Shown piece after piece: positions 5,732-24,475 of a stretch of 24,475 nt of DNA. Positions within the stretch are counted from its first letter, which is position 1. Every line of letters starts with the position of its first letter. A program made the position numbers and the translations under genes. A model generated the notes under the pieces. That model had not been told where the DNA came from. It worked only from the letters and a program-made list of their open reading frames with translations, and made no database searches. The stretch lies in the IMG/VR virus record IMGVR_UViG_3300034106_003785, positions 1 to 24,475 of that record, one strand, 5' to 3'. Source of the stretch: a virus.

Positions 5732-6019
5732 ATGCCTGCTGCAACAAGAATTGGAGATGCTGACGTTGCCCACTGTTCTGGGATGGTAAGAGCAGCCGGC
5801 TCAGGAAACGTTTTTGTGAACGGAAGACCGTGGTCAAGACAGGGTGATGTGAACACTGTGCATTTACTGCCGGGTTCACCATGCCCACCACATGCTGCCG
5901 CCATATCTTCGGGTTCCTCAACCGTAAAAGTAAATGGTAGAGGCGCTGGCCGTGTTGGAGATGCAATATCCGGTTGCACTTCCGTGGCTGCTGGGTCAGG
6001 TAATGTTTTTGCAGGTTGA
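5732..6019 (+). CDS. PAAR-motif spike tip protein (gp5.4-like)
   Basis: The protein has 95 residues, almost exactly the size of T4 gp5.4. PAAR proteins form a sharp metal-stabilised cone on the end of the gp5/VgrG needle and are the first part to touch the membrane. The start (MPAATRIGDADVAHCSG) and repeated VNGRPWSRQGD and VNGRGAGRVGD turns are typical of PAAR domains, and GSGNVFVNG near residue 24 is echoed by GSGNVFAG at the C-terminus. Candidate metal ligands are His14, His44, His54 and Cys82, with Cys15 and Cys51 nearby. There is no extension on either side, so no effector is fused to the tip. A strong AGGAGA site precedes it. Context just after gp5 and before gp25 fits perfectly. Confidence 0.93.
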   Translation: MPAATRIGDADVAHCSGMVRAAGSGNVFVNGRPWSRQGDVNTVHLLPGSPCPPHAAAISSGSSTVKVNGRGAGRVGDAISGCTSVAAGSGNVFAG

Positions 6020-6454: not shown

Positions 6455-8512
6455 ATGGCTGAACCACTACAAGTTACCGAACTTGATTTCGATCAAATTA
6501 AACAGAATCTAAAGACTTACCTGAAGGGTCAGTCTGAGTTTACCGACTATGATTTTGAGGGATCTGGTCTGAGTGTTTTATTAGATATCTTAGCGTACAA
6601 TACGCATTACAATGCTTATTATTTGAACATGGTTGCCAACGAAGCATTCATGGATACCGCTTTGCTACGTGATTCTGTTATCTCACATGCTAAAGTTTTA
6701 GGATATGTTCCTTATTCAAGAAAAGCACCACGTGCGACAATTAATTTTACTGTTAATACCAGCACCAATGTTGCAAGCACATTAACAATACCAAAAGGTT
6801 TTTCTTTTTTATCCAATGAAATTGATGGCGTCAGTTATAATTTTGTAACTTTAGAAGAAATCAAAGTAAACAAATCAAATACAGATTTTACATTTCTGAA
6901 CTTGTCATTATATGAAGGTCAGTTAGTAACATATAATTATACTTACGATCAAACAACAAATCCGAAACAAATATTTTCTTTACCAGACACAAACGTTGAT
7001 ACATCCACTTTGTTTGTCTCTGTTCGCAATTCTATTTCAAATACAGACTCGGAAGTCTATACATTGGTTTCTGATGACTCAATCGCTACAACAACGTCTT
7101 CGGCTTACTATTTACAAGAAAATAGAGGTGAGAAATATGCTATCTATTTTGGTGATAATGTGATTGGTAAAAAATTACCTAATGGTGCAGTGGTCAGCAT
7201 TACTTATTTGATCACGAATGGCACCGGTGCAAACAAAGCAAATAATTTTGTTGCTACAGGTTTTCTTGCAGATTCTTTAGGCAATTCACAAACCGATTTT
7301 ATAATTGACCCAGTGAGTGAAGCCGCTGGTGGCGCTGAAAGAGAATCTGTAGACAATATTAAGTTTGCTGCGCCTTTACAGTTTACAACACAAAACCGTT
7401 TGGTAACGTTTCCTGATTACGAGGCTTTTATACAGAAAAACTATCCAGCAGTTGATGCTGTTTCTGTTTGGGGTGGAGAAGATGAAACACCACCCAAGTT
7501 TGGTGTTGTTTATGTTTCGCTCAAAACAAGAGAAAATTATTTTTTGTCGGACACCGAAAAACAACGTATTATTGATGAAATTATTAAACCAAAAGCAATT
7601 GTTGCAATTCAGACCGTAATACGTGATCCTGAATTTTTATATTTACTTGTTTCACCAACAGTCACATATGATGCTAGAAAAACTTCACTAACCGAGCAGC
7701 AATTAAAAGCAGCAATAAGAACCGCAATTTTATCATACAAGACAACTAACTTGGACAAATTTGATTCGCAATTTATACTTTCAAAAGTTCAAGACACCAT
7801 TGATTCAGTAGATACAAATTCTATTATAGGTTCAACAGTATTAGTTCGTTTAGAGAAAAGATTTGTACCAACTTTAAATGCATCCACACCATACACTATT
7901 AACTTCAACTCTTCATTGCGTAGGGGCACAATTGGTAACAAACTAACTTCAACAACTTTCACGGTTACAGATTCTAGCGGTGTTGACCGTGAAGTTCAAT
8001 TTGATGAAATTCCACAATCTTTTTCTGGCATTTCGTCTATTCAAGTTACGAATCCTGGTGCAGGATACACTTCTTCACCAATAATTAAAATTGAAGGTGA
8101 TGGTATTGGAGCAAATGCTTCGGCGGTTATTGTTAATGGTAGAATTCAGAGTGTCGAAATAACAAATCGTGGTATTGATTATACACGTGCTATTGTTACT
8201 ATTAGTGGTGGCGGGGGTTCTGGTGCAACTGCTTCAGTAGTCATTGATGGAAGAACTGGTACAATTCGTACGGTTTATTATGATTCTTTTGCTCAAAGAC
8301 AGGTAGTTGATGAGAATGCGGGAGAAATAGATTATGACGCTGGTATTGTTAAAATTTCAAACATCAATATAAAAGGAACACAATCTGTTGATGGTGATGT
8401 TCGCATTTCAATTGAGTCGGAAAAAGGTATTATAAGTACACAGAAAAATACAATAATCACGATAGACCAAGATGATCCAACATCAATTAGTACAACGTTA
8501 GAAACTGTATAA
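6455..8512 (+). CDS. 6: Baseplate wedge protein gp6 with GxGY repeat insert
   Basis: The protein has 685 residues (T4 gp6 has 660). gp6 dimers link the wedges into the inner baseplate ring and carry the baseplate J-like domain. The N-terminal block (about 9-95) is diagnostic: FDQIKQNLKTYLKGQ, DFEGSGLSVLLDILAYNTHY, NEAFMDTALLRDSVISHAK. The central block with EAAGGAERESVDNIKFAAPL and FPDYEAFIQKNYPAV (about 289-333) matches the J-like core. Residues 525-605 are a Gly-rich repeat, with NPGAGYTSSP and later a GGGGSGATAS turn, of a kind also found in the next three large genes. The stop codon overlaps the next start (TAATG at 8510-8514), so gp6 and gp7 are translationally coupled, as suits proteins needed in fixed ratio. 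Confidence 0.95.
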   Translation: MAEPLQVTELDFDQIKQNLKTYLKGQSEFTDYDFEGSGLSVLLDILAYNTHYNAYYLNMVANEAFMDTALLRDSVISHAKVLGYVPYSRKAPRATINFTVNTSTNVASTLTIPKGFSFLSNEIDGVSYNFVTLEEIKVNKSNTDFTFLNLSLYEGQLVTYNYTYDQTTNPKQIFSLPDTNVDTSTLFVSVRNSISNTDSEVYTLVSDDSIATTTSSAYYLQENRGEKYAIYFGDNVIGKKLPNGAVVSITYLITNGTGANKANNFVATGFLADSLGNSQTDFIIDPVSEAAGGAERESVDNIKFAAPLQFTTQNRLVTFPDYEAFIQKNYPAVDAVSVWGGEDETPPKFGVVYVSLKTRENYFLSDTEKQRIIDEIIKPKAIVAIQTVIRDPEFLYLLVSPTVTYDARKTSLTEQQLKAAIRTAILSYKTTNLDKFDSQFILSKVQDTIDSVDTNSIIGSTVLVRLEKRFVPTLNASTPYTINFNSSLRRGTIGNKLTSTTFTVTDSSGVDREVQFDEIPQSFSGISSIQVTNPGAGYTSSPIIKIEGDGIGANASAVIVNGRIQSVEITNRGIDYTRAIVTISGGGGSGATASVVIDGRTGTIRTVYYDSFAQRQVVDENAGEIDYDAGIVKISNINIKGTQSVDGDVRISIESEKGIISTQKNTIITIDQDDPTSISTTLETV
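8027..8269 (+). repeat. GxGY beta-repeat in gp6 (residues 525-605)
   Basis: Two tandem degenerate units of about 40 residues: SIQVTNPGAGYTSSPIIKI followed by an Ala-rich strand, then SVEITNRGIDYTRAIVTI followed by GGGGSGATASVVI. The pattern is a strand, a G-x-G/D-Y turn, a strand, a glycine-rich turn, then an Ala/Val strand. Similar units occur in gp7, gp8 and the DUF4815 protein. Confidence 0.7.
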
Positions 8513-20878: not shown

Positions 20879-21799
20879 ATGGCAATAGATCAACTTTCAA
20901 CAGCCAATACTTTTGAAGAGTGGCTAACTACCACCTCTACCTTGGTGGCGGTAGCCAACAATCTAACCGACAATACGGGTGGTGGATTTTATGCTAACTC
21001 TTCAATTTTTATTGAAGGTTCTGCTGCTTCTCTGAATGTTCGTACACTGGCAAACATCAATACACTAAGAGCAAACACAGCAAATCTTGCCAACGTTCTT
21101 TTCTTAGATAATGATGTAACAGTACCAAGAGATATAACGATTGGAAGAAACGCCAACGTAATCGCAAACATAACTTCTGTTAATGTTACAAATAGGTTGT
21201 TTGTTGGTGGCGATACTTTCTTATACGGCAATCTGACCATTTCGGGTAATACGACTTTAGATGCCATTGGGTTTAACGATTTGGCTGTGGCAGGCAATGC
21301 TAATATTGCTCAAACTTTAGTTGTTGTTGGAAACACGTTTGCTTCAAATGTAACTATATCTGGTAACATTACAAGAGCAAATGTTACAACAACACTGAAT
21401 GTTGGTAGCAGTATCACAGCACCATTGGCAAACATTGCGAATATTGGATTATCATCTAGTTCACTTTCTGTTCCAGGAAACTTAACTGTAACCGGCACAA
21501 CTTCAAATATTACTCGAAACTTAGTTGTTGGTGGTAATATTGCTGTAGCGAATATCACAAGTAATGCGTATATTGGTGGTGACGCATTCATCTACGGTAA
21601 TTTAACAATCACAGGTAATACCACTTTAGATTCTATTGGTTTCAACGACCTAAGTGTTGCGGGTTCAATCAATGCGGCCAATTTAAATACAAGCACCGGC
21701 AATATTACAAATTTGGTCGGTCAAGCAAATACAGCAATTTATGGTGCAATTTCGGCGGCGATTGACTCATCAATTGCGTTTTCGATTGCCTTAGGCTGA
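20879..21799 (+). CDS. Tail-fibre-like virion protein with internal duplication
   Basis: The protein has 306 residues and is strongly Asn/Thr/Ala/Gly/Ile-rich with no Cys. The N-terminus (STANTFEEWLTTTSTLVAVA, then NNLTDNTGG) resembles the anchoring end of structural or fibre proteins in marine T4-like phages. From about residue 75 onward there are short beta repeats of the kind GNLTISGNTTL, NLTVTGTTSNI and NLVVGGNI, suggesting a trimeric beta-prism shaft. A 32-residue unit at 108-139 (FVGGDTFLYGNLTISG and on) recurs at 231-262 with 25 identical residues. The Ala/Ser-rich C-terminus (YGAISAAIDSSIAFSIALG) is typical of this protein type. It follows the coiled-coil gene after 1 base and is the last gene before a separate late promoter. 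It probably attaches distal adhesins to the baseplate. Confidence 0.75.
   Translation: MAIDQLSTANTFEEWLTTTSTLVAVANNLTDNTGGGFYANSSIFIEGSAASLNVRTLANINTLRANTANLANVLFLDNDVTVPRDITIGRNANVIANITSVNVTNRLFVGGDTFLYGNLTISGNTTLDAIGFNDLAVAGNANIAQTLVVVGNTFASNVTISGNITRANVTTTLNVGSSITAPLANIANIGLSSSSLSVPGNLTVTGTTSNITRNLVVGGNIAVANITSNAYIGGDAFIYGNLTITGNTTLDSIGFNDLSVAGSINAANLNTSTGNITNLVGQANTAIYGAISAAIDSSIAFSIALG
21200..21295 (+). repeat. Internal repeat copy 1 in the fibre-like gene
   Basis: Encodes residues 108-139 (starting FVGGDTFLYGNLTISG). Paired with the copy at 21569-21664: 25 of 32 residues are identical by hand count. Confidence 0.8.
21569..21664 (+). repeat. Internal repeat copy 2 in the fibre-like gene
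   Basis: Encodes residues 231-262 (starting YIGGDAFIYGNLTITG). Of the 25 residues identical to copy 1, 14 use a different synonymous codon, so this is an old duplication kept at protein level. Confidence 0.8.
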
Positions 21800-21828: not shown

Positions 21829-22161
21829 ATGGCAAATACGTTTAGAAATCAAACACTCAAAGCCGCCGGAACTACGGCACAAAATGCTTACGCCGCTGGT
21901 GCCGGTGTACAAGCAACTGTCATTGGTATGACGATTGCTAATATTACTAATTCACCTATTTCTGCGAATGTCATTTTAAGTGGTGGAAATATTACTGGTA
22001 ATGTTTACCTAGTTCAAAGTGCTACAATTGCTCCAGGTGGTGCGTTAGTGCCCGTTGGTGGTGATCAAAAACTTGTTTTAGAAGCCGGAGATTATTTACA
22101 GGTTAACACTTCAATCGCATCTTCTGCTGATGTTATTACCTCAATTCTGGAGATTACTTAA
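21829..22161 (+). CDS. Small beta-rich structural protein A (110 aa)
   Basis: This 110-residue Ala/Gly/Thr-rich protein has no Cys and no membrane helix. Its pattern is a basic start (MANTFRNQTLKAAGTTAQNA), then VIGMTIANITNSPISANVIL, LVQSATIAPGGALVPVGGDQ and KLVLEAGDYLQVNTS, ending in a strand (SILEIT). This resembles small beta-sandwich virion proteins seen in marine phages. The 112-residue protein two genes downstream shares the same layout (SITIAN strand at the same position, and a late Gly-Asp or Gly-Ser turn), so the two are likely paralogues. It follows its own late promoter and a good AGAGGA site, and its stop overlaps the next start (TAATG at 22159-22163). Fibre or baseplate accessory role by context; the exact role is unknown. 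Confidence 0.7.
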   Translation: MANTFRNQTLKAAGTTAQNAYAAGAGVQATVIGMTIANITNSPISANVILSGGNITGNVYLVQSATIAPGGALVPVGGDQKLVLEAGDYLQVNTSIASSADVITSILEIT

Positions 22162-22956: not shown

Positions 22957-24475
22957 ATGGCTCTAAATAGAATCTCCGTAAGTAGAGTATCTCTCAAACG
23001 AATGACTGTGCCAGGATTTGGCACTGCTGGTGGTAGTGGTGGCGATATTACACCAAGCGTTGGCGTTCAAGTGTTTAATGAAAGTTCAACTTGGACTGTG
23101 CCACAAGGTGTAACAACAATTGAATACCTTATTGTTGCTGGTGGTGGTAGTGGTGCTGGTGGCTATGCGGCGGGTGGGGGTGGTGCTGGAGGTTTTAGAA
23201 CGGGTGCGGGTATTACTGTAACGCCTGGCACAACTCATACAATTATTGTTGGTGCGGGTGGTGCGGGCACTCCTTCATATGCTGTTACTGGTGCAAATGG
23301 TTCAAATTCAGGAATCTGGTCTGCATCACCATTTCCTGCTATTTGGTCATCGGGTGGTGGCACAGGTGGAGCAGGGGGACCGGCTGGAGGTAGTTCTGGA
23401 CCCACTAACGTTAATGGTAGTTCTGGGGGTTCTGGGGGTGGCGGTAGCGGCAATTCAGGTGGTTCTGGAGGTTTAGGAAATATCGGTGGATATACAACCC
23501 CACCCGAAGGTGGTAATGGTTCCAATGGTTTCTTTTCACCGTCTGGTGCGGATAGGCTGGGTGGTGGCGGCGGTGGCGCAGGAAGTGTACCTACTTGGTC
23601 TGGTGCCAATGGCGCAGTTGGTTTATTCTCAACAATTTCTGGTGCTAATACTGCATATGCTGGTGGTGGGGGAGGTGCATATCCACAAGGCGTTCAAGCC
23701 GGTGGTGGAGGTTATGCCCCCTATGGAACATTAGAAGGAACTCCTTTCGGCGGTGGTGCTGGTCAAAAACAGGGCGGTTATCCTTTCTCTCCAACAGTCA
23801 TAAATGCTACAAGTGGAAATAATAATACTGGTGGTGGCGGAGGTGGTGGTAATAACCCAACTGGAGAATCGACGGGAAGTGGTGGTTCGGGTGTGGTCGT
23901 TCTCAAATGGACATTTGGTGACACAACAAATCAAGTTTTTGTTTTTTCAAATACATCACCATTTAGAATACCCGATGGTGTCACACAAATTGATTATTTG
24001 TTGATCGGTGGTGGCGGTGGTGGTGGAGTACAAGTAGGTGGTGGTGGGGGTGCCGGTGGAGTTATTACAGGCACAGGTTATCCCGTAGGTCCAAATCAAC
24101 TTTACACAATTCAAATTGGTGCGGGTGGCGGTGGTGCTTCTGGTGGAGTGCCAAGCACTACGATTGGTGCAAATGGCACGAATACTGTTCTCTCCGCAGG
24201 CAATACAGCAAACACTATTTTACTTACTGCTATTGGTGGTGGTTATGGTGGCAGTTTCCAAGCATTTCCTGCGGCCGCAGGTGGTTCTGGTGGAGGGGGT
24301 GGTGAGACTCCAACGAATTCAGGGGGCACACTAGGAACATTAACACACACTTCTCAAGGATTTGGTGGTGGTGTTGGTTCTCCTGGTAACATTGGTGGAG
24401 GCGGCGGTGGGGCTGGAGGTCTTGGTGCTGCGGCCATCAGTCCTCTTGGTGGCAATGGTGGTATAGGAATATTTT
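22957..24475 (+). CDS. Glycine-rich adhesin-like protein, two modules, cut by window end
   Basis: The frame is open from ATG 22957 to the window end (506 complete codons, no stop), so the gene is partial. After a short basic head (MALNRISVSRVSLKRMTVPG) come two modules. Module 1 (residues about 39-318) starts VFNESSTWTVPQGVTTIEYL, runs through long GGGG-rich tracts and closes with SGVVVLKW. Module 2 (from about 327) starts VFVFSNTSPFRIPDGVTQID and is still running. Each opens with a strand, a proline turn and an xxYLIxGGGG strand, the layout of the glycine-rich domain known from phage fibre ends. The glycine tracts could form a polyglycine-II bundle like the gp38 adhesin of phage S16, the receptor-binding tip of that phage. 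Host recognition is therefore the likely role. The start is weakly supported: only GGA at 22946-22948 and an AT-rich leader. Confidence 0.8.
   Translation, partial: MALNRISVSRVSLKRMTVPGFGTAGGSGGDITPSVGVQVFNESSTWTVPQGVTTIEYLIVAGGGSGAGGYAAGGGGAGGFRTGAGITVTPGTTHTIIVGAGGAGTPSYAVTGANGSNSGIWSASPFPAIWSSGGGTGGAGGPAGGSSGPTNVNGSSGGSGGGGSGNSGGSGGLGNIGGYTTPPEGGNGSNGFFSPSGADRLGGGGGGAGSVPTWSGANGAVGLFSTISGANTAYAGGGGGAYPQGVQAGGGGYAPYGTLEGTPFGGGAGQKQGGYPFSPTVINATSGNNNTGGGGGGGNNPTGESTGSGGSGVVVLKWTFGDTTNQVFVFSNTSPFRIPDGVTQIDYLLIGGGGGGGVQVGGGGGAGGVITGTGYPVGPNQLYTIQIGAGGGGASGGVPSTTIGANGTNTVLSAGNTANTILLTAIGGGYGGSFQAFPAAAGGSGGGGGETPTNSGGTLGTLTHTSQGFGGGVGSPGNIGGGGGGAGGLGAAAISPLGGNGGIGIF
23101..24475 (+). repeat. GGN-rich low-complexity coding DNA
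   Basis: Dense runs of GGT/GGC/GGA codons, for example 23563-23577, 23830-23850 and 24007-24028, give many short G-pairs on the plus strand, and proline-rich false reading frames on the minus strand. This is coding sequence of the glycine-rich gene, with repeats at the codon level. Confidence 0.8.

Follow-up and report, generated by a model that had tools for sequence, protein, structure and literature searches.

Glycine-rich receptor-binding tips are, to our knowledge, known as single heads. The parts of the Pam3 report considered here (PMC9608196) describe the tail-fibre protein gp24 of this cyanophage as a chain of helical docking, TNF-like and glycine-rich domains, the last two of which serve receptor recognition. 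The protein trimerises mainly via its long helical domain and it resembles gp38 of phage S16 over 52 residues, S16 gp38 having a beta-helix instead of the TNF-like domain (same sections of PMC9608196). Adhesins of the gp38 type, in T-even phages, S16 and PP01, present constant glycine motifs and hypervariable loops at a T4-like fibre tip; they contain a beta-helix domain and sit on gp37 (PMC12892980, in the portion used). In the Hafunavirus family, sections of PMC8651126 name a glycine-rich tail adhesin gene, located in a hypervariable region, as a key host-range determinant. Finally, pelagimyophage-type phages have a hypervariable host recognition cluster that spans VrlC to gp14 according to portions of PMC7029224, a source in which the word "glycine" is absent from the main text.

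Described here is an environmental T4-like phage lineage with several genes of mostly three such heads, which appear to recombine as slot-preferring cassettes; a literature search of limited scope returned no report of tandem glycine-rich tips exchanged between genes. The gene analysed below is likely to specify a host-recognition adhesin at the tail tip of an uncultured T4-like myophage (pelagimyophage or cyanomyophage kind), multi-headed and with heads exchanged as cassettes.

Tandem glycine-rich modules at the contig end

The window, i.e. the whole stretch of DNA that was analysed, has 24,475 bases and is the complete viral record (a whole contig). An ATG-started ORF of 506 aa begins at 22957 on the plus strand and is stop-free up to the contig end (Table 1). 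It contains both module openings quoted in the first-pass annotation. A profile built from related modules finds module 1 with 209.5 bits (aa 36-318) and the cut module 2 with 143.3 bits (aa 325-506). This profile matched none of 200 full shuffles and none of 79 reversed homologues. Glycine-fixed shuffles did match in 124 of 200 cases, with at most 47 bits, and module calls below about 50 bits (e.g. in L033, L036 and L044, where L numbers designate related loci on metagenome contigs) might thus reflect the glycine pattern alone.

The two modules align with a Smith-Waterman score of 292, against a mean of 188 (sd 14, maximum 240) in 500 glycine-fixed shuffles and a mean of 150 (maximum 188) in 500 full shuffles. 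The tandem repeat therefore exceeds mere glycine content, and the repeat symmetry proposed from the letters of the window is present as two profile-matched, related modules. At positions with glycine in neither module, 20 of 65 residues are identical in the frame (module aa 1-100) and 7 of 32 in the interior. Hence, the loops of the two modules are poorly related, in agreement with the earlier impression that they look unrelated. The description of the gene as having two modules holds for what is visible, but the contig ends inside the gene and two is thus a lower bound. An exact 26-base pattern taken from near the window end found no overlapping contig, so that the remainder of the gene was not recovered.

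Table 1. Positions of the adhesin gene, its parts and two neighbouring genes in the window
Feature	Position	Strand	Remarks
Gene A, glycine-rich multi-module adhesin gene (very probable function)	22957..24475	+	PF21722, phrog_2295; 3' end outside the contig
N-terminal anchor, aa 1-34	22957..23058	+	first 22 residues shared with L016
Module 1, aa 35-318, predicted TNF-like beta-sandwich and glycine-rich domain	23059..23910	+	profile, model
Module 2, aa 325-506, slot-2 type frame, cut by the contig end	23929..24474	+	profile
VrlC-like DUF4815 gene, 2077 aa	14420..20653	+	left border of the host recognition cluster
phrog_1276-like protein, 112 aa	22605..22943	+	directly upstream of the adhesin gene

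Family, predicted fold and type of tip

The sole Pfam match of the gene is PF21722 (Gly_rich_2), in two stretches and with 99.7 bits for a curated cut-off of 24.3; its PHROGs match, phrog_2295, has no function assigned. An AlphaFold2 model of module 1, made from an alignment of 49 modules, reached a pLDDT of 85.1 and a pTM of 0.88. Among solved structures it comes closest to the tail fibre of Pam3 (7ypx_A, Z 16.4, rmsd 2.5 A for 185 aligned residues) and then to the tail tip of Bxb1 (9d93_Qa, Z 15.3, 3.4 A for 195 residues); the glycine-rich domains of ALK and LTK come next (Z 6.7-9.2). The homologues are thus proteins of the tail and not of the capsid, as a receptor-binding tip would have it. 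In the predicted model the TNF-like sandwich is continuous with the glycine-rich domain, which is the arrangement expected of the Pam3 gp24 type. A full-length model of a three-module protein (L002, 878 aa) was poor (pLDDT 54.9, pTM 0.50, and below 50 in pLDDT at the N-terminus) and was set aside.

Across the 49 modules, glycine occupies 63 of 284 positions in at least 80% of sequences, forming 14 tracts, and 73 positions, between the tracts, are variable. The comparison of relatives thus bears out the expectation of hypervariable loops, and constant glycine motifs alternate with hypervariable segments as in gp38. Might the modules be gp38-type adhesins proper, i.e. polyglycine-II sandwiches capping a gp37-like fibre, the arrangement of T-even phages and of S16? 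The constant tracts and variable loops fit this, as does the 52-residue resemblance between Pam3 gp24 and S16 gp38 in the sections of PMC9608196 used. But over 185-195 residues the modules match Pam3 and Bxb1 in their TNF-like and glycine-rich fold, whereas S16 gp38 carries a beta-helix where the TNF-like domain would be. Furthermore, the window gene carries several heads in tandem, PF21722 remains its only Pfam match, and a beta-helix domain was not recognised here. The S16 gp38 chains are absent among the structure matches listed, which says nothing against a gp38 fold. Overall, we find a gp38 adhesin proper unlikely. From the first-pass annotation, the glycine-rich receptor-binding tip stands, and its attribution to gp38 gives way to a fold resembling Pam3 gp24 and the Bxb1 tail tip. 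Given the Gly_rich_2 matches, the predicted fold and the place after the VrlC-like gene, the protein is very probably a receptor-binding tip, of the Pam3 gp24 type rather than of a demonstrated gp38 type.

The resemblance to Pam3 gp24 (PDB 7YPX) includes the predicted TNF-like sandwich with its glycine-rich domain and, from the sections of the Pam3 report used, a conserved glycine stem with variable distal loops. Yet, these sections give gp24 one head per chain in a homotrimer and a long N-terminal helical domain, whereas here several heads share a chain and only 34 aa precede module 1. The tail-tip chain Qa of mycobacteriophage Bxb1 (PDB 9D93) has the same predicted fold, but the solved chain counts 230 residues and one head. 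Among cultured T4-like relatives, Methylophilales phage Melnitz and Pelagibacter phage HTVC008M have glycine-rich genes with PF21722 matches, but these have other N-terminal parts and, in the frames that matched, a single module per chain. The module profile also matches a gene of halovirus HF2 (E 2.7e-30), presumably the adhesin described in the sections of PMC8651126; it has one module, unlike ours, and belongs to an archaeal virus.

Cultured relatives were detected by profile searches, whereas tblastn of the protein (506 aa) returned no match in 50,697 phage records, probably because of the low-complexity filter. In a genome collection, 332 pattern stretches included no relative. A phmmer search against PDB sequences returned only a monobody (E 0.0034), which we dismissed as a chance match.

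Genomic setting and the constant anchor

The DUF4815 gene occupies the place of the HTVC008M "VrlC protein" by Pfam match and synteny, and the nearest cultured baseplate relatives are those of HTVC008M (41%) and Melnitz (40%). Five small genes separate it from the adhesin gene. We sorted the glycine-rich genes of the related loci by N-terminal pattern into classes A to D, which are labels of this analysis; the window gene belongs to class A. The single gene at the B/C position of L002, L003, L004, L011 and L020 was labelled B, with an N-terminus that resembles C, and L019 was labelled D despite differing neighbours. In the relatives, classes B and C lie downstream of class A, with class D in most cases placed ahead of neck-like genes, which we take to be neck genes.

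The 112-aa protein upstream of the adhesin gene has relatives that precede class A and D genes at other loci, and a weaker relative of 127 aa precedes class B. More small proteins of this type stand before glycine-rich genes in the window (21829-22161), in L007 (5047-5373) and in L002 (5534-5917). They could be adaptors, assembly partners or a chaperone pair of the adhesins. In L002, the neighbours of 127, 129, 139 and 318 aa gave no Pfam match to tail-fibre chaperones, a search that divergent chaperones could escape. In the B/C block, the last glycine-rich gene is succeeded by a conserved gene of 127-134 aa in L002 (8603-8992, phrog_7759) and, in the same place, in L003, L006, L010, L012, L016 and L018. 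The window also encodes a 306-aa protein (20879-21799) in which two internal stretches resemble each other (FVGGDTFLYGNLTISGNTTLDAIGFNDLAVAGN and YIGGDAFIYGNLTITGNTTLDSIGFNDLSVAGS); its bactofilin- and hexapeptide-like matches are all weak, and it may be part of a beta-helical fibre. A 95-aa ORF (5732-6019) may encode a PAAR-type spike tip, and a 144-aa protein near the neck genes of L009 (11177-11608), L013 (6562-6993) and L029 (11632-12063) may be of Dps/ferritin type.

Variation is concentrated in the heads, with conserved anchor and neighbours. The first 22 residues of the anchor are identical in L016 (three modules), differ by one residue in L012 (two), are mostly common to L042 (four) and exist as a looser variant in L003 (one); module 1 of the window is only 42.1% identical to its counterpart in L016 at positions not both glycine. 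The window and L037, which has four glycine-rich genes in the corresponding region, share 88.4% DNA identity over 13 kb and 97.0% identity in the VrlC-like protein, against 32.4% in their first glycine-rich heads at positions not both glycine. One might consider that the protein is a structural or decoration component of the tail or baseplate, that its heads bind virion proteins or nonspecific surfaces, and that loop variation is the product of drift and recombination. The glycine-rich domain is indeed widespread among viral proteins (246 hits in BFVD at E <= 0.001), and in ALK and LTK the fold serves to bind protein ligands. This is at odds with a gene lying in the host recognition cluster (as delimited in portions of PMC7029224), with solved relatives that are a tail fibre and a tail tip, and with variation centred on the heads, and we judge it decidedly improbable. 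Location, fold and the halovirus parallel, the latter as far as the sections of PMC8651126 go, make host recognition the best reading.

Slots and exchange of heads

After removal of repeated contigs, three modules are present in 21 of 22 complete genes from classes B, C and D, the exception being L021 with two. Complete class A genes have one module in L002, L003, L004 and L037, two in L012, three in L016 and L039, and four in L042. Two modules per gene are also found in other lineages (L024, L027, L028, L030 and L034); the module-alignment scan accounts for at least 13 loci, mostly from lineages other than this one. The three-module protein of L015 has an additional C-terminal domain of about 280 aa (7413-8264, phrog_1325) that is absent from the other complete relatives. 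At least seven contigs stop within a glycine-rich gene: the window (at 24475), L006, L011, L013, L017, L018 and L038. This is as expected for assembly breaks at repeats, and glycine-rich genes are probably under-represented in databases.

The tandem modules had been attributed to a duplication. Modules within one protein are on average 26.7% identical at positions not both glycine, less than same-slot modules of different contigs (31.8%) and similar to different-slot modules (26.8%); this set lacks L004 (near-identical to L003) and modules shorter than 170 aa. A recent local duplication is thereby ruled out, and the two copies would rather descend from old slot lineages. Of 28 slot-2 modules, 18 carry a frame motif typical of this slot, against 2 of the 55 other modules. 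The module-count, DNA-match, slot-frame and identity sets are all without the repeated contigs (L008, L010, L017, L040 and the overlaps of L014 and L037), the other lineages (L024-L028 and L030-L036), L043 and L044.

Nearest-neighbour pairs of modules mostly keep their slot. At 60% identity or more (positions not both glycine), slot is kept in 10 of 11 pairs (3.6 expected) and gene class in 4 of 11 (2.8 expected; 5 by hand count if the B/C-position genes are relabelled C). Among all 63 pairs the slot is kept in 50 (20.4 expected) and the class in 21 (15.9 expected), in a descriptive test that uses genes of classes A-D with a visible N-terminus and treats related modules as independent. This fidelity to the slot could have a structural cause, or simply reflect linkers whose sequences are specific to a slot and direct recombination. 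A more speculative and rather doubtful idea is that three heads per chain form a single-chain pseudo-trimer that replaces a Pam3-like homotrimeric tip. Its positions would no longer be forced to be identical, and each slot could therefore have its own head lineage; with slot-faithful exchange, this would give a combinatorial host-recognition repertoire. The two-module genes of other lineages and the one to four modules of class A weaken it.

We searched for whole-module DNA matches of at least 80% among 106 modules, naming modules by gene class (letter) and slot (digit). C1 of L006 matches D1 of L019 (98.5% over 851 bp), D2 of L019 matches A2 of L039 (91.9% over 786), and module 1 of the window (A1) is nearest to modules from other genes, B3 of L003 (86.9%) and B1 of L002 (84.2%). 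Identity in 50-base steps is low in the flanks: 32-52% upstream and 40-62% downstream for L006/L019, save for a single 82% step within the following linker, and 29-50% and 26-50% for the window and L003. Between the window and L002 the upstream values are 32-52%; on the downstream side, which leads into a likewise related slot-2 module, identity declines only slowly. The search gave 14 pairs, or 8 once L004 is merged into L003. Five of these differ in gene or slot, three of the five forming one triangle (window, L002 and L003), and three share both, given that the 5'-cut genes of L005 and L013 were named by their downstream neighbours. Hence, whole modules appear to move as cassettes between paralogous adhesin genes.

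That exchange is only apparent, through assembly artefacts at repeats, is very improbable: cassettes are indeed seen on metagenome contigs, where repeats can cause misassembly, at least seven contigs (window included) end inside such genes and the 98.5% pair comes from adjacently numbered data sets, but the L006 gene has its usual neighbours on both sides and the other exchange pairs, 84-92% identical with mostly synonymous changes, are too diverged for read collapse to be likely. In a check for diversity-generating retroelements, made on the type of codon change alone, synonymous changes are more numerous than nonsynonymous ones in five of the six module pairs, as in L005/L016 with 12, 10 and 86 differences by codon position; the youngest pair, L006/L019, has 9 synonymous and 10 nonsynonymous codons.

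We thus favour a multi-headed host-recognition adhesin working as follows. A short N-terminal anchor would fix the protein to the tail, and behind it would stand a row of heads of about 280 residues, as a rule three of them in this lineage. The predicted form of a head is a TNF-like beta-sandwich, its strands running out into stacked glycine tracts, and the variable loops between these tracts are the likely receptor contacts. Such phages would carry several paralogous adhesin genes between VrlC and the neck genes, and heads would be swapped whole between genes and phages and mostly land in an equivalent slot, which would reshuffle the binding surface but preserve anchor and slot frame. Should the heads have different receptors, a single virion could target several host surfaces, and these could be changed one by one, with consequences for host-range evolution in phages of aquatic bacteria. 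The precise module boundaries given here can serve expression and structure work.

The class A gene of L012 (2014-3858) and the class D gene of L021 (391-2172) have a similar first module (82.4% aa identity) behind different anchors, a likeness that suggests a further exchange between genes.
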